Assembly (NCBI GenBank): GCA_030694905.1
Contig: JAUYTY010000023.1
Location: forward strand, 1-42,893
Reading direction: 5' to 3'
Origin: Eubacteriales bacterium
GTDB lineage: Bacteria > Bacillota > Clostridia > Tissierellales > Dethiosulfatibacteraceae
Length of the DNA: 42,893 nt
The translations under genes and the position numbers were made by a program. Each line of letters opens with the position of its first letter. The stretch's first letter is position 1. The notes under the pieces are model-generated. The model was not told the origin of the DNA. It worked only from the letters and a program-made list of their open reading frames with translations, and did no database searches. Of this stretch, positions 8,218 through 36,225 are shown piece by piece.

Positions 8218-8236
8218 GTTCTTTAATTGAATACAT

Positions 8237-8373
8237 CTTATCAAGAGAGATAGAGGGACAGGCCCTGTGAAATCTCAGCAACCTGCGAAAGCAAGGTGCT
8301 AAATCCTGCAGATTTAATCTGAAAGATAAGTTTTTTAGTTGACTATAAACTTCTCTTTCGAGAAGTTTTTTTA
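8237..8373 (+). promoter_or_regulatory. SAM-I (S-box) riboswitch with terminator, upstream of aspartate kinase
   Basis: P1 pairs CTTATC (8237-8242) with GATAAG (8325-8330). Core S-box segments are present: AGAGATAGAGGGA, GGCCCTGTGAAATCTCAGCA, ACCTGCGAAAGCAAGGTGC and the conserved CTGAAAGATAAG end. A terminator (AACTTCTC/GAGAAGTT, 8348-8367, then a T run to 8373) follows. By family behaviour, SAM binding favours the terminator, so this is an OFF switch reporting methionine/SAM sufficiency to aspartate kinase. Confidence 0.95.
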
Positions 8374-9427: not shown

Positions 9428-10273
9428 CTAGTCGATTGCGCAGAATATTACACCGCCACATCCCGGTCCGGAATGGGTGCCGACGACGCTGCCGATTTGT
9501 GCCTGAATAACTTCTTTCACCTTGAAGTTTTCGAGAAGTGTGTCCTTTATCTTTCCTCCAAATTCAGGATCATTGGAATTTAAGACAAATACGGTTTTAT
9601 TAGTCAAATCGTATCCACCTTCTTTGATCCAGTCCATAACCCATTTGACTGCCTTGGCCTTGCCTCTTGCCTTGTGTATGGTTTCAACCACACCGTTTTC
9701 AATTTTGATGATTGGCTTAAGATTCAAAAGACTGCCTGCAGCGCCTTGTGTTTTGGAGAGTCTTCCACCTTTTACCAGATACTTGAGGGTGTCAATTATG
9801 ATGGCGGATTTCATGTTTTCAGACATGGGTTGTATTCTTTCAAGTATATCTTTCACAGATGAACCTGTTTGAATCATTTTAGCAGCCTCAATCAGCATCA
9901 GGCCTGTCATGGCATTGACGCCTCTTGAATCGAAAATATGTATCTTGTCGGATCCGATGGTATCCTTGGCTATGGAAGCTGAAGAGAAAGTGCCGCTTAA
10001 CTCCTTGGCGATAAAAATTCCCAGAACCTCATGACCATCATCCAACAACTTTTGAAAAACCTCAATGAATTCTCCCGGATTAACCTGAGAGGTTGTAGGC
10101 ATTTCTTTTGCAGTTACCAGTTTTTCGTAGAACTCTTCAGGTTTGAGTTCAATTCCGTCGAGATAAGATCTTTCTGTAAAATTTACACTTAAGGGTACAA
10201 CTTTTATTCCAAGTTTTTCGACCAGTTCCTTTGGTAAATCACTGGTGCTGTCAGTTACTAGTTTGATTGACAT
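9428..10273 (-). CDS. DegV family fatty-acid-binding protein (FakB-like)
   Basis: A 281-residue DegV protein. The N-terminus MSIKLVTDSTSDLP carries the family's fatty-acid carboxylate-binding segment, and KGGRLSKTQG and the GTHSGPGCGG C-terminal motif are typical. Proteins of this family (FakB) hold an exogenous or recycled fatty acid while FakA phosphorylates it for phospholipid synthesis; no fakA is in the window. RBS GGAGG is 5 bases upstream of the ATG. It is read 29 bases downstream of a FabT-like repressor gene, which supports a role in fatty-acid handling. Which fatty acid it prefers cannot be read from the sequence. Confidence 0.9.
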   Translation of the reverse strand: MSIKLVTDSTSDLPKELVEKLGIKVVPLSVNFTERSYLDGIELKPEEFYEKLVTAKEMPTTSQVNPGEFIEVFQKLLDDGHEVLGIFIAKELSGTFSSASIAKDTIGSDKIHIFDSRGVNAMTGLMLIEAAKMIQTGSSVKDILERIQPMSENMKSAIIIDTLKYLVKGGRLSKTQGAAGSLLNLKPIIKIENGVVETIHKARGKAKAVKWVMDWIKEGGYDLTNKTVFVLNSNDPEFGGKIKDTLLENFKVKEVIQAQIGSVVGTHSGPGCGGVIFCAID

Positions 10274-10302
10274 AACAATCCTCCACTTAATTTTAGTTTG
10301 AT

Positions 10303-10749
10303 TTAGAATTTATATTTTTGTTTAAAATAACTATCAACATTAAACAGTGCCTTTATCAGCACCTCTTCCTGTTCAGGTTTGAGGTCAGTCAATGTATGAT
10401 CGACCATTTCCTGGTGGAACAGTTCGTGTTCCGCATAGGCCTTTTCACCCTTTTCAGTGAGGGTTATCACAACCTGCCGCTTGTCTTCAGGTGAGCGGTA
10501 TCGCTTAACATATCCTTTTTTAACAAGATTGTCTATTCCTATTGTTAGGGTTCCGGAGGTTATCTTTAGATCCTTGGCTGTTTCTGACATTGTACGTTCT
10601 GTCTTGCTCCCTATATTTTCTATGATGTGAAATTCAGTCATGGTTAAATCCTTGAATGCATGTCTGCATAAATACTTCTCTTCGATTTTGAGGATATCAT
10701 TGAACAGCTTCACGAGGATTCTGTTTAATGACTCACGGTTATTATTCAT
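10303..10749 (-). CDS. MarR family regulator, FabT-like
   Basis: A 148-residue winged-helix regulator. The start was chosen at ATG 10749, preceded by GGTGG; a longer form starting at 10794 would run through the operator repeats and is unlikely. The sequence resembles streptococcal FabT, the repressor of fatty-acid synthesis genes, especially across the N-terminal helix (FNDILKIEEKYL then FKDLTMTEFH) and the recognition helix region (SGTLTIGIDNLVKKGYV). Two copies of a FabT-type palindrome sit in its leader, so it probably represses its own operon, with acyl-ACP as co-repressor in the FabT model (inference). The downstream gene is degV/fakB. A generic MarR repressor of unknown ligand is the alternative. 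Confidence 0.8.
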   Translation of the reverse strand: MNNNRESLNRILVKLFNDILKIEEKYLCRHAFKDLTMTEFHIIENIGSKTERTMSETAKDLKITSGTLTIGIDNLVKKGYVKRYRSPEDKRQVVITLTEKGEKAYAEHELFHQEMVDHTLTDLKPEQEEVLIKALFNVDSYFKQKYKF

Positions 10750-10766
10750 CTTACCACCTAGAATTA

Positions 10767-10796
10767 CTTTGATAGTCAAAGCTTTGATAATCAAAG
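10767..10796 (-). promoter_or_regulatory. Two abutting FabT-type operators
   Basis: CTTTGATAGTCAAAG (10767-10781) and CTTTGATAATCAAAG (10782-10796) are adjacent 15-bp palindromes with identical 6-bp arms, located 18 bases before the regulator's ATG. They match the TTTGAnnnTCAAA type of site known for FabT. Confidence 0.75.
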
Positions 10797-11197: not shown

Positions 11198-11212
11198 GTA
11201 TAAATTTTATAC
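11198..11212. promoter_or_regulatory. Palindromic upstream activating site (UAS) of the fchA-ftcD operon
   Basis: GTATAAATTTTATAC, a perfect 7+1+7 palindrome, identical to the site at 14629 and one base from the site at 14694. It lies 184 bp before the sigma-54 promoter of fchA; the 110-bp repeat copy 3 lies between. Probably bound by the activator encoded at 12916-14568. Confidence 0.7.
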
Positions 11213-11247
11213 ACCTATCGATCAAAATGTAAATATCATCCCTCCCT

Positions 11248-11273
11248 ACCGTCTGTTAAAGGCGGTTTTTTTT
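11248..11273 (+). terminator. Probable terminator of the small membrane protein gene
   Basis: Short stem ACCGTC/GGCGGT (11248-11253, 11261-11266), then eight T residues running into repeat copy 3. Confidence 0.6.
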
Positions 11274-11274
11274 G

Positions 11275-11384
11275 ATCCGATGACTAACAGTGCTAAGATT
11301 CCCACTTATCAACTGAATCCAAGAACCCTGTTGATAAGTGGAAGATAAGCACTGTAGAGTCCCTGGATAACGGTTTCTAAGGTT
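11275..11384 (+). repeat. Dispersed repeat, copy 3 (rearranged)
   Basis: Starts ATCCGATGACTAACAGTGCT. The 3' segment normally found at the right end (CTGAATCCAAGAACCCTGTTGAT) is here placed inside the loop of hairpin 1, so that CCACTTATCAAC pairs with GTTGATAAGTGG. The conserved block GGATAACGGTTTCTAAGG follows and the copy then stops. All parts of the family except the inner arms of hairpin 2 are present but in a different order. Confidence 0.8.
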
Positions 11385-11396
11385 GATTAAGGAAAC

Positions 11397-11411
11397 TGGC
11401 ACAATAATTGC
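11397..11411 (+). promoter_or_regulatory. Sigma-54 (-24/-12) promoter of fchA-ftcD
   Basis: TGGCAC (11397-11402), 5-bp spacer, TTGC (11408-11411), then T: an exact match to the sigma-54 consensus, 45 bases before the fchA ATG. Confidence 0.88.
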
Positions 11412-11456
11412 TATAATGTAAATAGGCTAAATATTAAACATCAAAGGAGTGATTAT

Positions 11457-12035
11457 ATGACAGGGAACGATATGTTGGCAAAAATTATTGATTCTGACAA
11501 CACAACAGTCGGAGGAGGTGCATCATCAGCTCTGGCAGGTGCAATGGCAGCTGGAATGATTGCCATGGTTTCTAAATTGTCGGTTAAAAAAGACTATGGC
11601 CTTCCCGTGGAAGAACATATGAGCATTGCCGCTGAATTGGATGGTTTGGCGATGTGTTTATTGGATGGGAGCAAGAGAGACGAAGAGGCTTTTTTAGCGC
11701 TGGTTTCTGCCTACAGAATGCCCAAAAGCAATGATGAAGAAAAGAGAACGAGGGCAGAAGCCATCCATCAGGGAAGTGTTTTTGCATCAAATGTGCCAAA
11801 AGAAAACGGGTTAATGTGCCTGAAAGCATACGAACTGGGACTGGCTATAGTGGGCAAGTCAAACCCTAATGCCGGGTCAGACCTGCTGATAGCATTGGAA
11901 TTGGCTAAGACAGGTGTCTTTGGATGTGCATTGAATATCAGGGCAAACTTCCCCGGCATAAGGGATGAAAAGGTGATTAAGGAATTTGAAAAAGTTCTTA
12001 GAACATTAGAACAGTTCGGAGGTAGAAAATCATGA
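11457..12035 (+). CDS. fchA: Formimidoyl-THF cyclodeaminase / methenyl-THF cyclohydrolase
   Basis: A 192-residue member of the cyclodeaminase/cyclohydrolase family, alone rather than fused to the transferase as in animals. The N-terminal segment TVGGGASSALAGAMAAGM is diagnostic. In histidine breakdown it would release ammonia from 5-formimidoyl-THF to give 5,10-methenyl-THF; in other Clostridia FchA acts as the cyclohydrolase, and the two activities are hard to tell apart by sequence. Co-transcription with ftcD (ATGA overlap at 12032-12035) and the hut-type promoter favour the histidine role. RBS AAGGAG lies before ATG 11457. Confidence 0.9.
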   Translation: MTGNDMLAKIIDSDNTTVGGGASSALAGAMAAGMIAMVSKLSVKKDYGLPVEEHMSIAAELDGLAMCLLDGSKRDEEAFLALVSAYRMPKSNDEEKRTRAEAIHQGSVFASNVPKENGLMCLKAYELGLAIVGKSNPNAGSDLLIALELAKTGVFGCALNIRANFPGIRDEKVIKEFEKVLRTLEQFGGRKS

Positions 12036-12904
12036 AAAGATTATTGGCGGAAGTAAACATCAGCGAGGGCAGAGACCATGGACTTATCAATCTGGTACAA
12101 AAGGCGTTGGCACAGAATGAGGTGGAAATAATCGACGTGGATTCTGAGCCTAATCACAACAGAACCGTATTCACATATATAGGTGCGCCGGGAGCTGTGC
12201 TCCAAGGCACAAAGGATCTGACCGCCAAAGCCATTGAGCTTATCGATATGACAATGCATACTGGAAGCCATCCCAGAATGGGAGCTGTTGACGTGGTTCC
12301 ATTTATCCCGATTAAGGATATGACTATAGAAGAAACTGTTGAGATATCAAGAGAATTTGGAAAATTTCTGGGAAGCCTTGGCGTGCCTGTCTATTACTAT
12401 GAAGATGCCGCAACCCGACCGGAAAGAGCCAATCTTGTCAGCATCAGGAAAGGTCAATATGAAGCATTATCAGAAAAAATGAAACATGAGGAATGGCGAC
12501 CGGATGAAGGGCCTTTTGAGTTCGTTCCAAAAAGCGGAGCAACTGTGACAGGTGTCAGATTTCCGCTTATAGCCTTCAATGTCAACCTGAGAACAGATGA
12601 TATCGAGTTGGGCAAGAAAATTGTGAAGGCGGTGAGAGGCGCAACAGGCGGATACCAATTCGTCAGGGCTATAGCATTGCCAATTGAAGAATCCAAAATG
12701 ATTCAAATCTCCATGAATCTGACCAATTATGCCAAAACACCTATACATCGGGTTTTTGAAACTGTCAAATCAGAAGCCATGAGCTATGGTGTTCAGGTTG
12801 CGGGAACAGAGCTAGTGGGTCCAGTTCCTTTGGATGCTTTGAAAGATGTATTGGATCACTATCTGCAAGCCCATCATTTCTCAATGGAGCAGATTTACAT
12901 ATAG
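12032..12904 (+). CDS. ftcD: Glutamate formimidoyltransferase
   Basis: A 290-residue cytoplasmic enzyme that moves the formimino group of N-formiminoglutamate, the product of HutI, to tetrahydrofolate and frees glutamate. The start region (LLAEVNISEGRD), SHPRMGAVDVVPFIP and NVNLRTDD segments are those of the formiminotransferase N- and C-subdomains. The length matches the single-domain bacterial form. It overlaps fchA by 4 bp, so the two last steps of the pathway are made together. It ends 11 bases from the convergent activator gene, without an obvious terminator between them. Confidence 0.93.
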   Translation: MKRLLAEVNISEGRDHGLINLVQKALAQNEVEIIDVDSEPNHNRTVFTYIGAPGAVLQGTKDLTAKAIELIDMTMHTGSHPRMGAVDVVPFIPIKDMTIEETVEISREFGKFLGSLGVPVYYYEDAATRPERANLVSIRKGQYEALSEKMKHEEWRPDEGPFEFVPKSGATVTGVRFPLIAFNVNLRTDDIELGKKIVKAVRGATGGYQFVRAIALPIEESKMIQISMNLTNYAKTPIHRVFETVKSEAMSYGVQVAGTELVGPVPLDALKDVLDHYLQAHHFSMEQIYI

Positions 12905-12915
12905 CCTAAGGTGTT

Positions 12916-14568
12916 TTATGTCCAAAAATCCTTATCTTTTGTGATAGCAAGCCTCTTGATGCGGTAGATCAGGCTTTGCCTTATGATGCCCAGATAGGAT
13001 GAGGTTTTGGTGATATTCCAGTTAAACCGGTTGAGTGCTTCAACGATTATTTTTCTTTCCGCCTCATTGAGAGTTTCCGGCAATGATCCTGCATCTTTGC
13101 GGGTCCTATTCTCCTCTTTTATAAGCTTGCTTTTTAGGTAATTTGGCAAATGGGAGCTGTTGAGTTCAGACTCGCCTGTTTCAGCATTGATTATTAGATT
13201 CTCTATAACATGCTCCAGCTCCCTGACATTGCCCGGCCAGACATAATCATAAAGCAACGCTCTCAGATCGTTGGCATAGCCCTTAACGTGTTTATCCAAG
13301 ATCTCATTGTATTTACTGATAAAAAAGTTAGTCAGAAAAACAATGTCCTCCGGACGCTCTCTCAGAGGCGGAATGAAAAGGCATAATCTAGAGATTCTAA
13401 AATAGAGGTCCTGTCGCAGTCTGCCCTCATTGAGGAGTGTTTCAGGATCTTCGTTGATAGCGCATATGATTCTACACTCCACATCCTTATTCTTCAATCC
13501 ACCGACTTTCCTGAATTTTTTTTCCTGAAATACCCTTAGGAGCTTGGTTTGCATGTAGATTGGCAGGGAATTGAGCTCATCCAGAAACAGGGTTCCCTTT
13601 CCCACTTCCTCCAGATAGCCATCCTGATCGGTAGAGCCTGTAAAAGAGCCTTTTGTGGTTCCAAAGAGTGTGCTTTCAAGGAGATTCTCGGGCAAGGCCG
13701 CACAGTTGACCGCGAAAAATTTTTCCTTATTATGCTTGCTCATGTTATGGATGCTTTGAGCGAACATTTCTTTGCCGACGCCGGTCTCGCCTATAATCAG
13801 CAGATTGCCGTCAATAAGCGACATTCTCTCTGCTTCTTTTATGGTGTTGGTCATGGCAGGACTGTTTCCTTTTATGTCGTCAAAGGTGTAAAAAGTACCG
13901 TTATTGAAGGTCTTGGTGTTGGCTTTGCTTTTGAGCTTTCGTTTCAGCTCTAGGGTTTCTGAGAGAAGCTCCAACAGCTTTGATTCGTTTTTACTGACAG
14001 AGAACACAGACAGAGTCTGGTTGTCTTGTATTACAGGATAGGTGGAATAGGATAGATATTTCTCGGACTGTCCGTTTTTCACATGAGATTTGTACTCATT
14101 GATGATAGGCTTTTGGCTCTTGAGTACCTGACGGTGCTCTGACATTTCGGGTGCTTCGTATTGATAGACCTCCCACAGGTATTTTCCAATGCAGTTCTCT
14201 CTTACCAGTCCCTCAAGCTTTTCCTGAGCAGGATTGTAGAGAATGATTCTGCCGTTCTTATCGCTCATCAAAATCCCATCATCAAGCTTATCAAAGATGG
14301 CCTCATAACAATATGTCTTTTCTTCAAGACGCTTAAGATAGTCCACATCCTGAAGCTCAATAATCTCATATTTCTTGTCTGAGACGGCAACAAAAGACCT
14401 GTGGACCCTATAAATGTGGCTACCCTGATTAAACTCTTCACTTTTGCCGATAATTTCTAAAAGATTGACTGAGCTGTTGATTTGATCAGCCTGATGGTTG
14501 GTGTATATTACTTTGATGCCTTCAAGGATTATGATAGGACAACTTAGCCCATCAAACATTTCGAGCAT
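12916..14568 (-). CDS. Sigma-54-dependent activator of histidine utilisation (PAS-AAA+-Fis)
   Basis: A 550-residue enhancer-binding protein. Residues ~84-195 look like a PAS sensor domain preceded by a less clear N-terminal domain; there is no phosphoacceptor domain. The AAA+ core has Walker A GETGVGKE (260-267), the sigma-54 contact loop GSFTGS (307-312; consensus GAFTGA) and Walker B GTLFLDEL (325-332). The C-terminus is a Fis-type helix-turn-helix (NITKTSSYLGIIRQSLIYRI). It sits between the two hut transcription units, both with -24/-12 promoters and a shared palindrome, so it most likely activates both in response to histidine or urocanate (inference). RBS GGAGGTGATGCC is strong. A site of the same palindrome near its own promoter suggests autoregulation. 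Confidence 0.9.
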   Translation of the reverse strand: MLEMFDGLSCPIIILEGIKVIYTNHQADQINSSVNLLEIIGKSEEFNQGSHIYRVHRSFVAVSDKKYEIIELQDVDYLKRLEEKTYCYEAIFDKLDDGILMSDKNGRIILYNPAQEKLEGLVRENCIGKYLWEVYQYEAPEMSEHRQVLKSQKPIINEYKSHVKNGQSEKYLSYSTYPVIQDNQTLSVFSVSKNESKLLELLSETLELKRKLKSKANTKTFNNGTFYTFDDIKGNSPAMTNTIKEAERMSLIDGNLLIIGETGVGKEMFAQSIHNMSKHNKEKFFAVNCAALPENLLESTLFGTTKGSFTGSTDQDGYLEEVGKGTLFLDELNSLPIYMQTKLLRVFQEKKFRKVGGLKNKDVECRIICAINEDPETLLNEGRLRQDLYFRISRLCLFIPPLRERPEDIVFLTNFFISKYNEILDKHVKGYANDLRALLYDYVWPGNVRELEHVIENLIINAETGESELNSSHLPNYLKSKLIKEENRTRKDAGSLPETLNEAERKIIVEALNRFNWNITKTSSYLGIIRQSLIYRIKRLAITKDKDFWT

Positions 14569-14590
14569 GGCATCACCTCCGTTTTAAGTC

Positions 14591-14620
14591 ATTATATCAC
14601 GATGAATTAAAGCCTGACAA
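14591..14620 (-). promoter_or_regulatory. Sigma-A type promoter of the hut activator gene
   Basis: On the minus strand, TTGTCA (14620-14615), an 18-bp spacer, and TATAAT (14596-14591), 22 bases before the activator ATG. The UAS palindrome at 14629 lies just behind the -35. Confidence 0.65.
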
Positions 14621-14628
14621 GATGAATA

Positions 14629-14643
14629 GTATAAATTTTATAC
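14629..14643. promoter_or_regulatory. Palindromic UAS, distal hutU copy
   Basis: GTATAAATTTTATAC, identical to the site at 11198. It lies 136 bp before the hutU sigma-54 promoter and 8 bp behind the activator's own -35. Confidence 0.72.
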
Positions 14644-14693
14644 ATCAATTTAAAGCATAGATCCTTTTATTTCAGGCTTTAGATAATATAATA

Positions 14694-14708
14694 GTATAAA
14701 ATTTATAC
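14694..14708. promoter_or_regulatory. Palindromic UAS, proximal hutU copy
   Basis: GTATAAAATTTATAC, differing from the others only at the central base. It lies 71 bp before the hutU -24 element and 65 bp from the distal copy (centre to centre), about six helical turns, so two activator dimers could bind on the same face. Confidence 0.75.
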
Positions 14709-14779
14709 AATGTATCAGGAAATTTGGAGAACCGATTTTCAGAACCCTTGAAACAGCATACTTTGAACGATTGAAAGAT

Positions 14780-14794
14780 TGGCACGCTTATTGC
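14780..14794 (+). promoter_or_regulatory. Sigma-54 (-24/-12) promoter of hutUHI
   Basis: TGGCAC (14780-14785), GCTTA, TTGC (14791-14794), then TTT: an exact consensus match, 46 bases before the hutU ATG, almost the same distance as at fchA. Confidence 0.9.
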
Positions 14795-14840: not shown

Positions 14841-16556
14841 ATGAGCAATGCTGAAGTTTTATATGAAGTCAAAGCCCAGAGAGGCGATACGCTTAGATGT
14901 AAAGGATGGAAACAGGAGTCGCTTTTGAGGATGCTGGAAAACAACATGGAGAACGCAGAGATTCCTGAGCTGCTGGTGATTTACGGAGGCAATGGCAAAT
15001 GCGCCAGAAACTGGGAATCATATCATGCCATCGTCAAAGCACTGAAAGAACTTGAAAACAATGAGACCCTCGTCATCCAATCAGGTATGCCTGTAGCCGT
15101 ATTCAGAACCCAGAGGCTGGCCCCGAGGGTTGTTATGGCAACCACCAATATCATGAAGGCTACCTGGGAGACCTTCTACGACCTCCAGGACAAGAACCTG
15201 ACCATATTTGCCCAGTACACGGCAGCGCCATGGGAGTATATCGGCACCCAGGGCGTTATTCAGGGAACATTCGAAACCTTGTCAGCCATAGCCATGAAAA
15301 AGTTTGGAAATGACCTGACTGGCAGGATTTATCTGACAGCGGGAGCGGGTGGTATGGGAGGCAACCAGAGCTGGGCTATGAAGATGCACGGCGGTGTTGC
15401 CATTATCGTGGATGCGGATGAGCGAATCATAGATAGAAGAATTGAGAAGAACTACCTTGACCAGAAGGTTTACTCTCTGGACGAGGCTATTGATATCGCA
15501 AGAAAAGCGGTAGAGGAGAAAAGACCTACCTCGGTAGCGGTTGTGGGAAATGCGGCAGATGTCTTTGAAGAGGCCTATATCAAAGGATTCATGCCTGATA
15601 TCATCAGCGAGATGTGTCCCTGCCACGATCCCATATCCTACATCCCTTCAGGGTACACAGGTGAGGAAGCGGATGATTACAGGGCAAGAAACAGACAGGC
15701 CTATCTGAAGGATGCAAGAGAGACGATGAAAAGACAGCTGACTGTCATGAATAAGTTCTACAAAAAAGGTGTTGAGGTGTTCGAGTACGGCACCAGCATA
15801 AGAAAAGAGTGTAGGGATGCGGGAATGCCAGAGGCTGAAGCCATGACTATCCCCGGATTTGTATCGGAGTATATAAGACCCCTTTTCTGTGAGGGAAGAG
15901 GACCATTCAGATGGATCTGCATGTCTGGAGACCCGGAAGACCTCAGAAAGACAGATGATCTTGCACTTGAGATCTGCAAGGGAGACCCTTTGGTGGAGAG
16001 ATGGATCAATCTGGCAAGGCGAAATCTGCCTATAGAAGGACTTCCTGCAAGAATCTGCTACATGGGGTTTGGGCAGCGAAGAAAATTTGGACTTGCAATA
16101 AATGAAATGGTTCGAAAAGGCGAACTGAAAGGACCTGTTGCCTTCTCAAGAGACAATCTGGATTCCGGTTCTATCGTCAATCCAACCTTTGAATCCGAAA
16201 ACATGAAGGACGGCGGCGACCTGATATCAGACTGGCCATATCTCAATGCTCTGTTGAATTGCGCAGCTGGCTGCGACCTGATCGCCATACAGGCAAACTA
16301 CTCCATGGGTGAGGCTGTCCATACCGGTGTAACTATGATAGCCGATGGGACAGAGGAGGCTGACTTACGGCTTGACTCTGCTCTGACAGTAGATTCAGGT
16401 ATTGGGGTTATAAGACATGCCCAGGCAGGCTATGAAACCGCCAAGGATGTCGCCAACGGAAAAGGTAAGCTGACTGATGAATCCATCAAGGTGCCATTAT
16501 GGTGGCAACCGGCGGAGTTTGTAACCTTTGGACCTAAGGGTAGAGCAGTCAGATAG
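14841..16556 (+). CDS. hutU: Urocanate hydratase
   Basis: Converts urocanate to imidazolonepropionate using tightly bound NAD+. The 571-residue protein shows the glycine-rich NAD motif GAGGMGGNQ starting at residue 168, the YMGFGQRR segment that in characterised urocanases holds the NAD-linked cysteine region, and the C-terminal ADLRLDSALTVDSGIGV block. The N-terminal half is slightly divergent from proteobacterial HutU, as usual in Firmicutes. RBS GGGAGG precedes ATG 14841. It is the first gene of the hutU-hutH-hutI operon, 19 bases ahead of hutH, and is driven by the sigma-54 promoter at 14780. Confidence 0.96.
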   Translation: MSNAEVLYEVKAQRGDTLRCKGWKQESLLRMLENNMENAEIPELLVIYGGNGKCARNWESYHAIVKALKELENNETLVIQSGMPVAVFRTQRLAPRVVMATTNIMKATWETFYDLQDKNLTIFAQYTAAPWEYIGTQGVIQGTFETLSAIAMKKFGNDLTGRIYLTAGAGGMGGNQSWAMKMHGGVAIIVDADERIIDRRIEKNYLDQKVYSLDEAIDIARKAVEEKRPTSVAVVGNAADVFEEAYIKGFMPDIISEMCPCHDPISYIPSGYTGEEADDYRARNRQAYLKDARETMKRQLTVMNKFYKKGVEVFEYGTSIRKECRDAGMPEAEAMTIPGFVSEYIRPLFCEGRGPFRWICMSGDPEDLRKTDDLALEICKGDPLVERWINLARRNLPIEGLPARICYMGFGQRRKFGLAINEMVRKGELKGPVAFSRDNLDSGSIVNPTFESENMKDGGDLISDWPYLNALLNCAAGCDLIAIQANYSMGEAVHTGVTMIADGTEEADLRLDSALTVDSGIGVIRHAQAGYETAKDVANGKGKLTDESIKVPLWWQPAEFVTFGPKGRAVR

Positions 16557-16575: not shown

Positions 16576-18105
16576 ATGGACCCGATAATATATTTAGATG
16601 GCAATACCTTGACCCTTGAAGAAGTGGTCAGGGTGTCAAGAAAAGGAACAAAGGTCGAGTTGACTGAAGATGGAAAGAGAAAAATAATTGAATCGAGAGA
16701 TCTTGTGGAAAAATTTCTTGCTGAGGGCAGGGCGATTTATGGCATCAACACGGGTTTTGGAAAATTCAGCGATGTGAGCATATCTGCCGATCAGCTTGAG
16801 GATCTCCAAAGAAATCTCATTGTGGCGGATGCGGTAGGTATCGGAGGCAATTTTGACACGGAGATTGTAAGAGCCATGATTCTGTTAAGAGCCAATGCTC
16901 TTGTAAAGGGTTTTTCAGGTATCAGGCTTGAAGTGGTTCAGACGCTGATTGATATGCTCAACAAAGGGGTACATCCTCAAATCAGAGAAAAAGGATCGGT
17001 GGGATCAAGCGGCGACCTTTGCCCGTTGGCACATATGGTGTTGCCTATGATCGGGTTGGGTGAAGCAGAGTTTCAGGGTGAAGTGATGGAGGGTCTGGAG
17101 GCCATGGAAAGGGCAGGCATATCCATAGTTACCCTGAAGGCTAAGGAAGGACTCGCCCTGATCAATGGCACCTGTGCAATGATGGCTGTAGGAAGTCTGG
17201 CGGTTTATGATTCCATTGTCATCACCAAAACGGCAGACGTGATTGCCACTTTGACAATAGAAGCACTTGAGGGCATAACAGATGCCTTTGATGAACGGAT
17301 CCATCTCGCCAGACCTCATAAGGGACAGATTGAGTGCGCCAAAAATCTCCTGAAGCTTTGCCAAAACAGCAAGCTGACAACCAGACAAGGCGAAAAGAGG
17401 ATGCAGGATGCCTATTCTCTCAGATGCACGCCGCAGATTCATGGGGCAAGCAGACTGGCTTTCGATTATGTCAGGCAGGTGATAGAGACAGAAATCAATT
17501 CAGCTACAGATAACCCGCTGATCTTCACAGATACGGAAGAGGCCTATTCGGGAGGCAACTTCCATGGACAGCCTGTTGCCATTGCCATGGATACCCTGGG
17601 GATTGCTATGGCCGAGTATGCCAATATATCGGAAAGACGGATTGAAAGATTGGTTAATCCGACACTGAGCGGGCTTCCTGGATTTCTGGTCAAGGAAGGC
17701 GGAATCAATTGCGGTTTTATGGTTCCACAATATGCAGCCGCGTCACTTGTATCTGAAAACAAGGTACTGGCACACCCTGCAAGTGTCGATTCCATACCCA
17801 CATCCGCCAATCAGGAAGACCATGTCAGCATGGGAACCATAGCGGCAAGAAAAGCGCGGGTGATTATAGGTCATGCCCAATCGGTGCTGGGGATAGAGCT
17901 GCTCTGTGCAGCCCAGGCAGTGGATTTCAAGGACGCTGGTTTGCTGGGCACAGGGTCGGCAGAGGCATACAGGCAGCTGAGGGAAAGGGTTACCTTTATG
18001 GAATCGGACAGACTTATTTATAAGGATATGGACATCTCGACAGAGCTGATTGCCTCGGGAAAGCTTTTGGAAGCAGTTGAAAAAGCGGTGGGAGAGCTCT
18101 ATTGA
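16576..18105 (+). CDS. hutH: Histidine ammonia-lyase
   Basis: Removes ammonia from histidine to give urocanate. The start is ATG 16576, preceded by GGGAGG; an upstream in-frame start at 16528 would lie inside hutU. The 509-residue length fits the family. The electrophilic MIO cofactor is normally formed from Ala-Ser-Gly, but here residues 144-146 are Ser-Ser-Gly in GSVGSSGDLCPLAH. The central Ser145 and Gly146 needed for cyclisation are kept. The remaining core (NTGFGKFSD, SATDNPL, GGNFHGQP) is intact. Second gene of the operon. An aromatic-amino-acid lyase of other specificity is unlikely given its neighbours. Confidence 0.96.
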   Translation: MDPIIYLDGNTLTLEEVVRVSRKGTKVELTEDGKRKIIESRDLVEKFLAEGRAIYGINTGFGKFSDVSISADQLEDLQRNLIVADAVGIGGNFDTEIVRAMILLRANALVKGFSGIRLEVVQTLIDMLNKGVHPQIREKGSVGSSGDLCPLAHMVLPMIGLGEAEFQGEVMEGLEAMERAGISIVTLKAKEGLALINGTCAMMAVGSLAVYDSIVITKTADVIATLTIEALEGITDAFDERIHLARPHKGQIECAKNLLKLCQNSKLTTRQGEKRMQDAYSLRCTPQIHGASRLAFDYVRQVIETEINSATDNPLIFTDTEEAYSGGNFHGQPVAIAMDTLGIAMAEYANISERRIERLVNPTLSGLPGFLVKEGGINCGFMVPQYAAASLVSENKVLAHPASVDSIPTSANQEDHVSMGTIAARKARVIIGHAQSVLGIELLCAAQAVDFKDAGLLGTGSAEAYRQLRERVTFMESDRLIYKDMDISTELIASGKLLEAVEKAVGELY

Positions 18106-18127: not shown

Positions 18128-19396
18128 ATGAATCAAATACAACTGAAACCGGATCTGGTGATAAAAAATTGTGGACAGCTGTTGACCGTCTCAGAAAATA
18201 GTCCGGACCTTGTGGGTTTGATACGGAATGGTTACGTTGGCATAACGGGTGAAAAAATTGTCTTCATAGGCACTAAAGAAGCGTATGACCGTCAAATCGA
18301 TGATACGGAATCCAAGGTAATTGATGGCACTAATAAGGTTGTCCTTCCCGGATTCGTGGACTGCCACACCCATCTTGTCTTTGGGAAATCAAGGGTTGAG
18401 GAGTATGCATCAGGTCTGATCCCCGGTGGATTGGAGAAGTATAGAGCCGGTGGTATCAAAACAGGCATGGTAGCTTCTGTCGACATGACAAGATTGGAAC
18501 CGGAAGAGTCGCTATATCTGGAGAGCTATAAAAAAATCGACAGAATGATCAGAAATGGCACTACCGCCATTGAAATAAAAAGCGGTTATGGATTGGATAA
18601 AGAAACAGAACTGAAACAACTCAGGGCTATATCAAAACTAAGACAAAATACTAAGGCTGATATTTCAGCCACATTCCTGGGTGCCCACGGATGGCCAAAG
18701 GAAATGTCAAAGGATAGATACATTGACTTCCTGATTAATGAAATGATTCCTATGGTTGCAGAGGAAGGTTTGGCGGAGGCCTGCGACATTTGGGTGGATG
18801 ATGGCTACTATACGGCATATGAGGCTGAAAAGGTTCTAAGAGCCGGTATGGATCATAATCTCGAGGCGAAGATACACACAGACTGCTATTCCTACATAGG
18901 AGGATCTGACCTGGCAGCGGACATGAAAATGATGTCCGCAGACCATCTGAACTATACACCAGAATCCTCAATCAAGAAAATGGTTGATGCCAAAGTCGTT
19001 GGCGTGTTTCTGCCGGGAACGGATTTCTCCGTCAGTCATCCCTTGCCCTTTAACCCAAGGCCCATGCTGGATGCCGGTATGAAAATAGCGCTTGCCACCA
19101 ATCTCAATCCCGGAAACTGGGTTGAATCACAGTTCTTAGTCATCACACTGGCATGCAGAAGGCATCAGATGAGCGTGGAAGAGGCCATCAGAGCGACAAC
19201 TTTAGGCGGTGCTATGGCATTGAGGAAGAATCACGAAATGGGAAGCCTTGAGGTCGATAAAATAGCAGATATCCAAATATGGGATACAGACAATTATAAG
19301 GACGTGGCGTACAAGCATGGCCGAAATTTTGTGGAGACCGTCATCAAAAGAGGACAAGTGATTGTTGGATCTTTAAGTGAACAAAAGCATATCTGA
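18128..19396 (+). CDS. hutI: Imidazolonepropionase
   Basis: A 422-residue amidohydrolase that opens the imidazolone ring to N-formiminoglutamate, the substrate of FtcD. The metal-binding pair H80xH82 is in VDCHTHLVFG; later KSGYGLD, FLGAHGWP, the HTDCY histidine and the AATNLNPG region match the family. RBS AAGGAGG lies before ATG 18128. It closes the hutUHI operon and is followed by a terminator. With HutH, HutU, FtcD and FchA it completes the route from histidine to glutamate and a one-carbon folate. Confidence 0.96.
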   Translation: MNQIQLKPDLVIKNCGQLLTVSENSPDLVGLIRNGYVGITGEKIVFIGTKEAYDRQIDDTESKVIDGTNKVVLPGFVDCHTHLVFGKSRVEEYASGLIPGGLEKYRAGGIKTGMVASVDMTRLEPEESLYLESYKKIDRMIRNGTTAIEIKSGYGLDKETELKQLRAISKLRQNTKADISATFLGAHGWPKEMSKDRYIDFLINEMIPMVAEEGLAEACDIWVDDGYYTAYEAEKVLRAGMDHNLEAKIHTDCYSYIGGSDLAADMKMMSADHLNYTPESSIKKMVDAKVVGVFLPGTDFSVSHPLPFNPRPMLDAGMKIALATNLNPGNWVESQFLVITLACRRHQMSVEEAIRATTLGGAMALRKNHEMGSLEVDKIADIQIWDTDNYKDVAYKHGRNFVETVIKRGQVIVGSLSEQKHI

Positions 19397-19542: not shown

Positions 19543-19914
19543 ATGAAAATATTGATATCCAATTCAAGTCAAGAACCCATATACGAGCAAATCACAACAC
19601 AAATAAGAGATCAAATCATTAAAGGCACACTAGAGGAAGGATTTTTACTGCCATCAATCAGAGGGCTGGCAAGAGAGCTGCAGATCAGCGTCATTACAAC
19701 CAAGAGAAGCTACGAGGAATTGGAAAAGGAAGGCTTCATAGAGACCGTTCCCGGTAAGGGCAGCTACGTAGCGCCACAAAATCTGGAGCTGTTGAAAGAG
19801 AAAAAGCTTAAAATTATTGAAGATAAACTGGCAGAGATAGTCGATCAGGCAATGATGCTAAGGGTTGATAAGGATGAAATTATCAATATCATCAACATCT
19901 TATTTGAAGAATAA
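19543..19914 (+). CDS. GntR family (YtrA-like) transcriptional repressor
   Basis: A 123-residue regulator: a GntR winged helix-turn-helix (PIYEQITTQIRDQIIKG, then LPSIRGLARELQ) followed by only ~50 residues, the short C-terminal tail typical of the YtrA subfamily, which works as a dimer without a large ligand domain. It starts at ATG 19543 after GGAGC. It is the first gene of an operon with an ABC ATPase and two permeases, the standard YtrA context, where the repressor releases its operator under cell-envelope antibiotic or similar stress. The inducer here is not known. Confidence 0.9.
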   Translation: MKILISNSSQEPIYEQITTQIRDQIIKGTLEEGFLLPSIRGLARELQISVITTKRSYEELEKEGFIETVPGKGSYVAPQNLELLKEKKLKIIEDKLAEIVDQAMMLRVDKDEIINIINILFEE

Positions 19915-22208: not shown

Positions 22209-22230
22209 TGAAAATATAAAATAACTGTAA

Positions 22231-22372
22231 CTTATCATGAGAGGTGGAGGGAATGGCCCTGCGAAACCTCGGCAACCTACGCATTATGCGCAAGGTGCCA
22301 ATTCCAACAGTGTAAACTGGGAGATAAGAAGATTTGGAATTCCAAGCCGCTTCTTATAGAAGCGGCTTTTTT
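22231..22372 (+). promoter_or_regulatory. SAM-I (S-box) riboswitch with terminator, upstream of metY
   Basis: P1 pairs CTTATC (22231-22236) with GATAAG (22323-22328). The internal segments GAGAGGTGGAGGGAATGGCC, GCGAAACCTCGGCAACC, CGCATTATGCG and AAGGTGCCAATTCC are those of the S-box. A strong terminator AAGCCGCTTC/GAAGCGGCTT (22344-22368) with a T run follows. Expected to shut off metY when SAM is plentiful. Confidence 0.96.
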
Positions 22373-24865: not shown

Positions 24866-25076
24866 ATTGTGTGAGATATCTTAGATGATAGCCGAAGGTG
24901 AAATATGAATTATAGCCGATAATCCATAGAAACTCTCAGGCACGAGAATCGCAATCAGATGGGACTCTGAAGAGACCGTTTGTGGTCATAACGGCACCGA
25001 AGGAGAAATTGCTCAGCAAGAAGCTCTCAGGTAAAAAATACAGAGATTGTATGGCACAAGCATACAATCTTTTTTA
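24866..25076 (+). promoter_or_regulatory. Tandem glycine riboswitch with terminator
   Basis: Two glycine aptamers are visible: the first with GCCGAAGGTGAAA and AAACTCTCAGGCA, the second with CACCGAAGGAGAAATTGC and AGCTCTCAGGT. P1 of the second pairs CTCTG (24965-24969) with CAGAG (25041-25045). The terminator AGATTGTAT (25044-25052) / ATACAATCT (25062-25070) plus T run overlaps the 3' strand of P1, so glycine binding should prevent the terminator: an ON switch for glycine cleavage. Confidence 0.94.
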
Positions 25077-32115: not shown

Positions 32116-34221
32116 ATGAACAATCAATTTAAAAAACTGAATATATCATTTGCGGTAGCACTCTTGATTATGACTTTTCTAAGCAGTTATTACTTAAGAT
32201 ATATCAATAACTATACTATTCAGGAAGCCAGCAAGCATGCTATTGAGTTATCCAGAACCATAGAGGCATCCATAAATAAGGAAGCATTGAAGAATCTACA
32301 TGCTGATGAAAGCGATTTGAGTAAAGCAGAATACATTGCGTTAAAGGATAGTCTGATGACAGTCGTTAAAATCAATCAGGACTTGAAATTTGCCTATCTG
32401 TACACACTAGTGGATGACGAAATAAAGTTCATGGTGGATTCAGAGCCATCGGACTCACCGGATTATTCCCCTCCAGGCCAGATTTATACTGAAGCATCTC
32501 CGCATCATTTTAAACCCTTTGAATCAGGAGAAATCGTCTTGACTGAACCCTTTGATGACCGGTGGGGAAGGTGGGTTTCTATTTTGGTGCCAGTCTTAGA
32601 CAATGATGTAGGCGTGGCAACGGTGGTCTTTGGAATTGATTACCCGGAAAATATTTGGCAAAAGCATGTGAATTCGCATTTAGCCTTTGCGGCCATCATC
32701 GTTGGTTGCCTATTTGTCATTCTGGGAATTCTGTACATATTGTCTTTAAAAAACAACAGAATCAGAGAAAGCGAGAGGAGCAAAAGAGTCATTTTGTCCA
32801 ATCTGCCTGGCATGACCTACAAATGCAACGTCGATAGGGACTGGACCATGCAGTTTGTTTCTGAAGGTTGCCTCGAGCTGACAGGATACCCGGCGGAAAG
32901 CCTTATGAACAATAAGGAAATCTCATTTAACGCACTGATCAGCAAAAAATACCAGGATTATCTATGGGATAAATGGCAGGACGTCATTTCAAAAAGGACA
33001 AAGCTTAAGGAAGAATACGAGCTGATTACACGAGATGGCTCCATCAAATGGGTGTTTGAGCAGGGACAACCTATATTTGACGAGAAGGGAGCGGTGGTAG
33101 CCCTTGAAGGGCTGATTATCGATATCACTGATAGAAAAAGGAAAGAAGAAGAAATAACCTATTTAAATGACTATGATTTCCTGACCGGTCTCTTCAACCG
33201 AAGATACCTTGATAAAATAAAAAATGAGATTGAGAACGAAAAAAATATCCCGATAACCATTATTGTAGGAGATATTAACGGACTTAAGCTGATCAATGAT
33301 GCTTTTGGACACGAGAAAGGGGACACTTTGATTGTTCAAACTGCCAAACTATTGAAGGAATGCTGTGGCGATAACAGATTTCTGTTTAGAACAGGTGGCG
33401 ATGAATTTACAATGGTTTTACCCAATACTGATGAAAAAACTGCTGGATTGATCATGGATCAGATCAAGAGCGCCATTGATAATTTCAATCGCAAGACAAA
33501 AAATGAGGCCTATTATCTACACCTATCTTTGGGATACAGCACAAAAAAATATGACTTTGAAAGCTTGGACCACACCCTGAAAATTGCTGAAGACCATATG
33601 TACAAAAGAAAACTATTGGAGCATAAAAGCTCCCACAGCAGTATTGTTTCATCGATTAAAGCAACTATTTACGAAAGAAGCCAGGAAACCGAAGCCCACG
33701 CGCAGAGAATGACATTTTTTGCTAGGAGAATGGGGGAGAGACTGAAATTCTCCAACACTGAAATGGATAACATGGAGCTTTTTTCAGCCCTGCATGACTT
33801 GGGGAAAATTGGAATCGATGGCAGTATATTGAACAAACCGGACAAGCTTGACGAACAAGAATGGATAGAAATGAAAAAACATCCCGAAATCGGTTATCGG
33901 ATCGCCATGGCCTCGCCTGAATTGGTGTCAATAGCTGAATTTATACTGACCCATCATGAGAGATGGGATGGCACAGGTTATCCTCAAGGTTTGAAGGAAA
34001 CTGAGATACCGCTTCATGCCAGGATACTGGCAGTGGTTGACGCTTATGACGCTATGACTGTGGACAGAATCTATAGGAAAGCCTTGACCAAAGCGGAGGC
34101 AATCAATGAGCTGATCATTAATAAAGGTACGCAATTTGATCCTCATCTGGTTGATTTGTTTATCGGAACATTGGAGGAGAATGAGGCTGATTATAATCCC
34201 AGTTTTTTAATCCGATATTGA
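32116..34221 (+). CDS. Membrane sensor with PAS, GGDEF and HD-GYP domains
   Basis: A 701-residue protein predicted to make and/or break cyclic di-GMP. Helix 1 (~10-27) and helix 2 (~188-209) bracket a ~160-residue outer sensor domain; then PAS (~224-342), GGDEF (~347-505, intact GGDEF at 427-431) and HD-GYP (HDLGK at 560-564; HHERWDGTGYP at 613-623). Both catalytic signatures look complete. No RxxD inhibitory site is seen just before GGDEF. ATG 32116 follows AGGAG by 8 bases; earlier in-frame ATGs at 32092 and 32095 lack a ribosome site. Its last 31 bases overlap tail-to-tail with the sigma-54 activator gene. The outer ligand is not known. Confidence 0.9.
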   Translation: MNNQFKKLNISFAVALLIMTFLSSYYLRYINNYTIQEASKHAIELSRTIEASINKEALKNLHADESDLSKAEYIALKDSLMTVVKINQDLKFAYLYTLVDDEIKFMVDSEPSDSPDYSPPGQIYTEASPHHFKPFESGEIVLTEPFDDRWGRWVSILVPVLDNDVGVATVVFGIDYPENIWQKHVNSHLAFAAIIVGCLFVILGILYILSLKNNRIRESERSKRVILSNLPGMTYKCNVDRDWTMQFVSEGCLELTGYPAESLMNNKEISFNALISKKYQDYLWDKWQDVISKRTKLKEEYELITRDGSIKWVFEQGQPIFDEKGAVVALEGLIIDITDRKRKEEEITYLNDYDFLTGLFNRRYLDKIKNEIENEKNIPITIIVGDINGLKLINDAFGHEKGDTLIVQTAKLLKECCGDNRFLFRTGGDEFTMVLPNTDEKTAGLIMDQIKSAIDNFNRKTKNEAYYLHLSLGYSTKKYDFESLDHTLKIAEDHMYKRKLLEHKSSHSSIVSSIKATIYERSQETEAHAQRMTFFARRMGERLKFSNTEMDNMELFSALHDLGKIGIDGSILNKPDKLDEQEWIEMKKHPEIGYRIAMASPELVSIAEFILTHHERWDGTGYPQGLKETEIPLHARILAVVDAYDAMTVDRIYRKALTKAEAINELIINKGTQFDPHLVDLFIGTLEENEADYNPSFLIRY

Positions 34222-35579
34222 AGGGTTTGCCTTGGAATATTTAAAACCTCAGCAGCTTTGGAAATGTTGTTTTCCGTACTTTCCAGAGCTGCTCTAATTA
34301 TTTTTTGTTCTGTTTTTTCAAGAACCTCACTCAATGAACCGATATCATCCAGAGAGATGCTGTCATTTTTTCTTCTTTGCGTTTTGAATTGAAAAGGCAG
34401 ATGTTCCTCTCTTATAATATCAGCGTCAAATAGGCTGGCAATACCTTCAATGGTATGTTGAAGCTCCCGCACATTGCCAGGCCAGTCATAATTCATAAAT
34501 ATCGCCATAACATTGCTCGAAAGATTTCTGATAAACTTATTTTTCTCCTTGTTGTATTTTTCAATGAAAAAATCCACAAGAACAGGGATATCCTCTTTCC
34601 GCTCTTTCAACTCAGGCACAATGATAGAGATAACATTTAGCCGATAAAAAAGATCCTTGCGAAGCTGTCCCGTAGACAGTATATCCTCGATATCTGAATT
34701 GAAGGCTGCCATGACCCGCACATCCACGTCGATGGTGTTGGATGCGCCAACTCTTCTGATATTATGGTTTTGCAACGCACGAAGAAGCTTTGCCTGCAGC
34801 TCGAGAGGCATTGAGTTGATCTCATCCAAGAACAATGTTCCACCATGAGCCAACTCAAATAACCCCGGCCTGTTTTCAGCACCGGTGAAGCTACCCTTGA
34901 CAGATCCAAATAGGATGCTTTCAAGCAGGTTTGCCGGAAGTGCGGCACAGTTCTGGGCGATGAAGGGTTTGTTTTTTCTGCTGCTGGCATTATGGATCGC
35001 CTGGACGAACAATTCTTTTCCGGTTCCGGTCCTTCCGCCGATCAAAACGGGTGAATCTGTCTGGGAGGCTTTAAAAGCCAGTGTTTTTAATTTCAGCATC
35101 TCTTTTGACTGACCGATTATATCGACAAAGGTATATTTTGCGTCAGTGACAATATCCTTGACCTGAGACTGAGGCTTATACAGTTCACTTTGAAGGTTGA
35201 CAATTTTTTCTGATAGTTCCTTTACTTGGGTAATATTTTTAGATACTTCTACCGCACCGATGATTTTATTGTTGGCCTTGATTGGAAATGAGGAGTTGAC
35301 AGTAGAAATCTTATCACCCTTGTAGTTGATAAATACCTGCTCCTTATTGATAATGGTGCTTCTTGTCTCCATGGATTGCAGCAGCGTGCTGGTTTCATGT
35401 GTCAATGACGGATAGATTTCAAGGATATGCCTCCCCAATGCGGTTTTACCTTCTATGCTGTCAACTATCCTAGCGGACTTGTTGTAGTAAATAATCCTAC
35501 CCTTGTCGTCAATAATCTGTATACCCTCATCGATGTAATCCAATATATTCAGTATTGATTCATAATATTTCTCATCCAT
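34191..35579 (-). CDS. Sigma-54-dependent activator, probably of lysine fermentation (PAS-AAA+-Fis)
   Basis: A 462-residue enhancer-binding protein: PAS domain at about 5-120, AAA+ core with Walker A GRTGTGKE (182-189; Arg where Glu is usual), GSFTGA loop (229-234) and Walker B GTLFLDE (247-253), and a Fis-type helix-turn-helix at the C-terminus (NISKAAEVLNIPRQTLQYRI). ATG 35579 follows GGAGG by 5 bases; an in-frame start at 35609 lies in front of it and is less likely. It is read divergently from kdd, which has a -24/-12 promoter, so it most likely activates the lysine genes (inference from position). No receiver domain: the PAS domain would sense a small molecule directly. Confidence 0.9.
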   Translation of the reverse strand: MDEKYYESILNILDYIDEGIQIIDDKGRIIYYNKSARIVDSIEGKTALGRHILEIYPSLTHETSTLLQSMETRSTIINKEQVFINYKGDKISTVNSSFPIKANNKIIGAVEVSKNITQVKELSEKIVNLQSELYKPQSQVKDIVTDAKYTFVDIIGQSKEMLKLKTLAFKASQTDSPVLIGGRTGTGKELFVQAIHNASSRKNKPFIAQNCAALPANLLESILFGSVKGSFTGAENRPGLFELAHGGTLFLDEINSMPLELQAKLLRALQNHNIRRVGASNTIDVDVRVMAAFNSDIEDILSTGQLRKDLFYRLNVISIIVPELKERKEDIPVLVDFFIEKYNKEKNKFIRNLSSNVMAIFMNYDWPGNVRELQHTIEGIASLFDADIIREEHLPFQFKTQRRKNDSISLDDIGSLSEVLEKTEQKIIRAALESTENNISKAAEVLNIPRQTLQYRIKKLGL

Positions 35580-35590
35580 AAAAACCTCCA

Positions 35591-35606
35591 TGCCGATAAT
35601 TCGGCA
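35591..35606. promoter_or_regulatory. Palindrome ahead of the second activator gene
   Basis: TGCCGATAATTCGGCA has perfect 6-bp arms and lies just before the ribosome site of the activator, between it and the DUF1934 gene. It could be an operator or an mRNA hairpin; nothing decides between these. Confidence 0.45.
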
Positions 35607-35611
35607 CATTT

Positions 35612-36210: not shown

Positions 36211-36225
36211 TGGCACGCTAATTGC
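36211..36225 (+). promoter_or_regulatory. Sigma-54 (-24/-12) promoter of the lysine fermentation operon
   Basis: TGGCAC (36211-36216), GCTAA, TTGC (36222-36225), then A: an exact core match, 73 bases before the kdd ATG. Confidence 0.88.

Follow-up and report, generated by a model that had tools for sequence, protein, structure and literature searches.

Sigma-54-type activation of histidine catabolism (hut) genes is known from Pseudomonas, where NtrC and CbrB act on hutU (PMC8871633), and has been predicted in Clostridium, where a sigma-54 activator named HiaR is assigned to hiaL-hyp-hutH (Nie et al, 2019; PMC6615313). The latter paper tabulates 39 activator groups of Clostridiales, HiaR included (its section 7); its section 6 terms the HiaR motif distinct, lists PrdR among the activators with TGT-N10-12-ACA sites, and puts upstream activator sites (UASs) at ~100-250 bp from sigma-54 promoters. 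Here we analyze a 42,893-nucleotide (nt) stretch of DNA (“the window”) from an Eubacteriales bacterium of the Dethiosulfatibacteraceae (GenBank contig JAUYTY010000023.1), which carries two hut units and, between them on the opposite strand, a gene for an activator with PAS, AAA+ and Fis-type helix-turn-helix (HTH) regions. Judging from sequence, this one-component protein very probably governs both units through a common palindrome and sigma-54 promoters.

One unit comprises a cyclodeaminase-type gene and ftcD, the other hutU-hutH-hutI (Table 1). A sequence-only reading of the window had pointed to a 15-bp palindrome, GTATAAAwTTTATAC, occurring three times and only upstream of the hut units, to an exact TGGCAC-N5-TTGC promoter 45-46 bp from each ATG, and to a PAS-AAA+-Fis activator encoded between the units. 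The palindrome is indeed exact at 11198-11212, 14629-14643 and 14694-14708 and nowhere else in the window, the promoter distances are 45 and 46 nt, and the activator assignment is borne out by PF00158, PF02954 and PAS matches. As for “only”, the positions stand, but two of the three copies sit in the divergent activator/hutU gap and are upstream of the activator gene as well. There, 8 bp separate the activator gene’s sigma-70-like promoter from the distal hutU palindrome; because this site lies just upstream of that promoter, autoregulation of the activator gene would be plausible. Between the palindrome at 11198 and its promoter lies a terminator-like site (11248-11266), as expected of an element that acts at a distance.

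Table 1. Features of the two hut units and of the activator gene in the window. Site distances are counted from the predicted start, taken as 12 nt after the last base of TTGC.
Feature	Position	Strand	Remarks
Palindromic activator site (UAS, predicted) GTATAAATTTTATAC, fchA-ftcD unit	11198..11212		centre ~-218 from predicted start
Sigma-54 (-24/-12) promoter TGGCACAATAATTGC, fchA-ftcD unit	11397..11411	+	exact; 45 nt before ATG at 11457
FTCD_C-type formiminotetrahydrofolate cyclodeaminase (fchA-like)	11457..12035	+	NCBIfam FchA below cut-off, 99 of 275 bits
ftcD, glutamate formiminotransferase	12032..12904	+	TIGR02024 414 bits, cut-off 221
One-component sigma-54 activator, PAS region + AAA+ + Fis-type HTH, 550 amino acids	12916..14568	-	domain matches
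Sigma-70-like promoter of activator gene, TTGTCA-18-TATAAT with TG	14591..14620	-	11/12 consensus match
Distal UAS (predicted) of hutU	14629..14643		centre ~-170
Proximal UAS (predicted) of hutU	14694..14708		centre ~-105; 65 bp from distal UAS
Sigma-54 (-24/-12) promoter TGGCACGCTTATTGC of hutU	14780..14794	+	exact; 46 nt before ATG at 14841
hutU-like urocanase, rare short subtype	14841..16556	+	hutU model 643 vs cut-off 375
hutH-like histidine ammonia-lyase, SSG at methylidene-imidazolone (MIO) position	16576..18105	+	model matches
hutI, imidazolonepropionase	18128..19396	+	TIGR01224 331.5 bits, cut-off 298

Relaxing the palindrome to three mismatches gives five matches in the window against a mean of 1.99 (s.d. 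1.46) in shuffled sequences, with 8 of 100 shuffles reaching five. Since this count is not significant and lies near chance level, we dropped the relaxed pattern as evidence and placed weight on exact copies. Across the 2.81-Mb genome the palindrome is not a common element: three copies are exact, all at the window’s hut promoters, where a zero-order estimate expects 0.03 per genome; none has one mismatch, and 16 have two. A reversed control pattern matches 12 times at up to two mismatches, so genome-wide, too, only the exact palindromes carry weight. Exact TGGCAC-N5-TTGC matches number 15 genome-wide, and the reversed control has none. A palindrome (at most three mismatches, at most 350 bp upstream) accompanies only the two hut promoters among these 15 sites; at another of the 15 (L028) the contig ends 44 bp upstream. 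None of the 12 two-mismatch palindromes that we examined, out of 16, has a pattern-type -24/-12 element within 350 bp; a weak TGGTAT...TTGT lies 394 bp from one two-mismatch palindrome of this genome. The gene for sigma-54 itself, rpoN, is present on contig C117.

Footprinting provides the strongest evidence for the predicted regulon. Relatives of the activator with 88, 75, 65 and 63% identity are encoded in genomes G001, G005 and G003 (two copies), and a 62% fragment lies at a contig end in G004. We aligned the regions upstream of hutU from the window’s genome (G000), G001, G005, G003 and G398, the last from a different order, together with G004, which was excluded from the count. Identical bases occupy 13 of 15 positions of the distal UAS, 13 of 15 of the proximal UAS and 12 of 17 in the -24/-12 region, against 6 of 153 positions in the rest of the region. 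In all five counted genomes the two sites lie 64-66 bp apart at about -170 and -105; G479 has a pair 65 bp apart, but at -262/-197, and a pair with the 64-66 bp distance also precedes a formate channel gene in G003. The fchA-ftcD unit is preceded by a single site in G001 (-174) and G005 (-105, one mismatch) as well, with the -24/-12 element at the corresponding place in both. Altogether the tally comprises 14 promoters and 21 sites of at most two mismatches, which were selected by similarity and whose letter counts lean to the consensus. Exact palindromes are found in four of eight genomes of the family (nine copies), namely the four with a full-length activator orthologue, and the reversed control in none of the eight; among 241 other genomes of the order, eight have one exact copy apiece, and the reversed control there gives 19 copies in 18 genomes. 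A scan of genome contigs brought up LGGM01000021.1 (Clostridiales bacterium 38_11) as its single informative relative with a name, besides one distant protein from Bdellovibrionaceae. These comparisons establish, at the level of sequence, that the parts of the predicted regulon exist, are unique in the genome, are conserved and have been inherited together with the activator gene in two orders. Because of this genome-wide uniqueness, the footprinting and the co-inheritance with the activator, we regard the predicted regulon of activator, common palindrome and two sigma-54 promoters as strongly supported.

In one relative, G003, the putative targets also include an uptake-type protein and a formate channel. 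The palindromic site and a -24/-12 element precede hutU on contig C19 and, with two mismatches in the site, a second set hutU-hutI-fchA-ftcD on C17. On C38, an exact site and a -24/-12 element stand before a branched-chain-type ATP-binding cassette (ABC) substrate-binding protein gene, and two sites of two mismatches each, again with a -24/-12 element, stand before a formate/nitrite channel gene, adjoining the second activator copy. The C19 pair recurs almost unchanged at the end of C40, which may reflect assembly or duplication. G001 has five branched-chain-type ABC genes within its hutU-hutH unit. An uptake transporter and a formate exit would fit histidine breakdown. Also on C40 of G003 (L065, 2155-5423), a sigma-54-type box precedes genes for a BCCT carrier and a second aromatic amino acid lyase, adjoining an activator gene and hutU; as a guess, these genes might be a candidate route for a betaine-type histidine compound.

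We next consider the wider activator clade, represented by 25 loci: 22 from 21 of the order’s 249 genomes (threshold E<=1e-130, with up to five candidates scored in each) and three from family f39, which belongs to a different order. Hut genes occur in the examined stretch at 22 of the 25 loci; the remaining three are the G003 copy adjoining the formate channel gene and the G182 and G206 loci, which a contig end cuts on the target side. For comparison, 25 other activator loci of the family, inspected over at most 1.5 kb on each side, yielded one weak hutH-like match (28%). Among the 16 order loci L087-L102, a strict -24/-12 element precedes the target in nine and a variant recognized by eye in six, with G206 cut off. 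Within this clade the site and recognition helix change while the target pathway stays constant. By inspection, the palindromes at order level are GTGTTTGAAATTCAAACAC-like in f16 and f18, CGCAAAATATTTTGCG in G096, and others elsewhere. Helix GIIRQS pairs with GTATAAAwTTTATAC in f1, f39 and one f14 genome (two mismatches), and GITRQS, GVTRQS and similar helices pair with the GTGTTTGAAATTCAAACAC-like sites. At two f18 hut loci (L091, L093), TTGAAAACGATGTCA lies between activator site and promoter and resembles, by eye, a CcpA catabolite-responsive element (cre) box. Spread in f39 is patchy, with the activator in 3 of 22 genomes. The f39 loci have the window-type palindrome even though the urocanase is of a different, long type in G479 and G612, and activator and site therefore appear to move together between gene sets.

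Several observations weigh against the predicted regulon. G004 has one recognizable hutU site, the proximal one being kept and the distal one degenerate; sites drift to two mismatches in members from G005, G003 and G479; and in G612 a lone site, at -264, goes with a weaker promoter. The correspondence between helix and site is unclean, as G096 combines a different palindrome with GIIRQG, which is close to GIIRQS. Sigma-54 activators contact sigma-54 through a loop with the canonical sequence GAFTGA; the L1 loop reads GSFTGS in five activators of the family, with the FTG core kept, and GAYTGA in the f39 relatives. In a 48-row tree, a branch with 100/100 support separates the 25 closest activators from the other rows, but the rows had been picked for their resemblance to the query, and all 25 had been labelled hut, which makes the clade partly a product of construction and no independent test. 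Finally, five f11 genomes have the window’s urocanase subtype and no match to the window’s activator at E<=1e-130.

The activator itself has the parts of a sigma-54 activator of the one-component kind. Its AAA+ domain matches PF00158 with 195.9 bits (cut-off 20.2), and in a Foldseek search with the predicted model this region fold-matches NtrC1, ZraR-type and DmpR structures. The Fis-type HTH (PF02954) carries recognition helix GIIRQS, PAS matches fall between residues 88 and 187, and residues 1-75 are modelled with moderate confidence as a further mixed helix/sheet unit (mean predicted local distance difference test score, pLDDT, 72.7 for the whole model, built on eight sequences). For the PAS ligand, the 50 Foldseek matches listed were AAA+ activator-family entries and uninformative. 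Alongside this HTH stand the predicted upstream sites at -105, -170 and -218. We infer DNA binding by the activator, ATP-driven activation and a signal from the histidine pathway: the protein would bind GTATAAAwTTTATAC through its HTH, at one site before fchA-ftcD and at the pair 65 bp apart before hutU-hutH-hutI; its PAS region would receive the histidine-pathway signal; and, with the DNA looped, its AAA+ ring would open sigma-54 polymerase at the two -24/-12 promoters.

Characterized control of hut genes in Firmicutes by HutP had been set against this arrangement in the sequence-only reading. The contrast stands for the window’s units but not for the genome, which has HutP in a second full hut operon. 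This operon, hutU(long)-ftcD-hutI-fchA-hutP-hutH, is complete on contig C98 (G000:C98:1-10327, L127), and its HutP scores 161.9 bits against a cut-off of 155 (NF002838). The hutP-hutH gap contains UAG-N4-UAG-N4-AAG followed by a strong hairpin and a U run, and triplets within a HutP cluster are spaced by 4 nt; to judge by these elements, the operon carries a predicted HutP-type attenuator. One cluster was looked for and one NAG array of three triplets found, and HutP-bound RNA has two clusters (PMC7430163). A strict NAG array is present in four of seven gaps examined (G000, G001, G002 and G006; shuffled gaps give 0.05 each), and the G005 gap has an array with a spacing of 5 in one interval; in G003 and G182 no array was found in the scanned stretch, and no hutH was seen adjoining there. 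In G001, G003 and G005, too, a HutP gene adjoins the long urocanase. Within the window’s own genome HutP matches fall on C98 and C45, the window being contig C169, and hutP with NAG array and terminator before hutH was not found in the window’s hut units. The C45 match is a second HutP-family protein (9895-10278, L128) that falls short of the HutP model at E 1e-20; its stretch also encodes nicotinate phosphoribosyltransferase and hydroxylamine reductase, and no hut gene was matched there. The window regulon would govern one of two complete hut sets in the genome, the other being equipped with HutP and a HutP-type attenuator. Two full sets in one genome, one under DNA-level sigma-54 control and one under RNA-level HutP control, would make a natural experiment on pathway splitting.

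Might the window’s hut genes nevertheless be mainly under HutP antitermination or global regulators, with the sigma-54 elements minor or relic? HutP is encoded in the genome, but it lies in the second operon between fchA and hutH and is followed there by the NAG triplet array and terminator. Both hut leaders in the window measure ~35 nt from predicted start to ATG, too short for an attenuator, and conservation extends to the -24/-12 box and the sites but not to their flanks; CodY and CcpA were not searched for. We consider this the least credible of the alternatives. Only slightly better placed, and still very improbable, is that the palindrome is the operator of some other DNA-binding protein while the sigma-54 activator uses other, unrecognized sites. 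AT-rich palindromes often serve as operators, and both a MarR-like open reading frame (10303-10794, named by eye and unconfirmed) and a GntR-type gene (19543-19914) lie near. Yet the palindromes precede the predicted sigma-54 starts by 100-220 bp, and the copy at 11198 is on the far side of the terminator-like site, which is unexpected for an operator of that promoter. They also follow the activator gene into another order, where the neighbouring genes differ, and palindrome and activator helix mostly change in step.

A reading that we find unlikely, though clearly less so than either of these, keeps the regulon and alters its substrate: it would serve a histidine derivative, and the activator would sense this derivative or its unsaturated product. 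The window’s urocanase scores 653 on the S-methyl-thiourocanate hydratase model, above its 643 on the hutU model (cut-off 375), yet below the former’s cut-off of 880. It has the loop EMCPCHD (seven copies of the subtype) in place of the QTSAHDP of solved urocanases, and QANYSMGE (four copies caught by the pattern) in place of HHGGGVGMG. The lyase has SSG, in five copies seen from the window’s locus type, where the second operon’s lyase has ASG. The urocanase subtype occurs in 11 of 249 genomes of the order. All 11 have two or more urocanase matches, and some of these matches may be fragments or further copies of this very subtype; in a class sample the subtype occurs in 2 of 321 genomes, G000 and G398. 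The G003 contig that links the BCCT carrier and second aromatic lyase to the activator and hutU also speaks for this reading. On the other side, HutU, HutH, HutI and FtcD exceed ordinary equivalog cut-offs, formiminotransferase and cyclodeaminase fit plain histidine, and activators of the same clade adjoin long-type, ordinary hut genes in f16 and f18. SSG is found in two f16 lyases as well. At the f11 loci with this urocanase subtype (L141-L145), the stretches examined had no match to the window’s sigma-54 activator and clustered the urocanase with other regulators; in G064 (L143) the neighbours are an AAA/TPR/BTAD regulator, a MutL-type protein and a Na/H-antiporter-type carrier, and these neighbours give no clue to a special substrate. 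Literature listings searched for the subtype showed nothing usable. The window urocanase may have a special substrate, perhaps a relative of histidine. The fullest form of this idea, equally doubtful, sees in the window a specialized, patchily spread histidine-type pathway, in which an SSG lyase and an altered-loop urocanase act on a histidine derivative sensed by the PAS activator, beside an ordinary HutP-controlled hut operon in the same cell.

Elsewhere in the window, a third exact -24/-12 element (36211-36225) precedes a zinc alcohol-dehydrogenase-type gene and is without a GTATAAAwTTTATAC palindrome. Near it, on the other strand, a second activator-like gene (34191-35609) encodes a protein with 39% identity to the hut activator. 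Upstream of the hut units no Rfam model, of a riboswitch or of another known RNA, matched at gathering score; elsewhere in the window lie two S-adenosylmethionine (SAM) riboswitches and one glycine riboswitch (8235-8332, 22229-22330 and 24957-25053). The SAM riboswitches precede an amino acid kinase gene and a Cys/Met pyridoxal phosphate (PLP) enzyme gene, and the glycine riboswitch a gcvT-type gene.

For the sigma-54 control of both window units by the PAS activator, the closest counterparts lie in the systems introduced above. Control of hut genes by a dedicated PAS activator had been called little described. That holds insofar as we found no other description of a PAS activator for the complete hut pathway in the open literature searched, and the main text of a paper on sigma-54 regulons (PMC12316311) contains no hutH, hutU, urocan- or formiminotransferase term; it does not hold for sigma-54 control as such, given HiaR (PMC6615313) and Pseudomonas NtrC and CbrB (PMC8871633). 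The best NCBIfam match of the window activator is PrdR (NF041552), but its 345 bits are far below the cut-off of 795; PrdR sites have the form TGT-N10-12-ACA, unlike the window’s GTATAAAwTTTATAC. Bacillus HutP antitermination serves the same pathway, and its hutP-[NAG array, terminator]-hutH layout recurs in this genome on C98 and in neither of the window’s units. In Pseudomonas, as proposed for the window, sigma-54-type activators act on hutU, with NtrC doing so from two palindromic subsites far upstream (PMC8871633); the regulators there are two-component response regulators together with the HutC repressor, whereas the window has a one-component PAS activator adjoining the genes. What the window offers is a footprinted, testable candidate for sigma-54 control of the route from histidine to glutamate in an anaerobe-type Firmicute; its site is defined, and the paired sites stand at a fixed 65-bp distance. 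It adds another example to a form of control already predicted for Clostridium and known in Pseudomonas. A further counterpart is the HiaR regulon of clostridial genomes, for which a sigma-54 activator specific to histidine catabolism, with an upstream site of its own, has likewise been predicted; compared by description, HiaR targets hiaL-hyp-hutH, and the window’s two units cover the pathway to glutamate.

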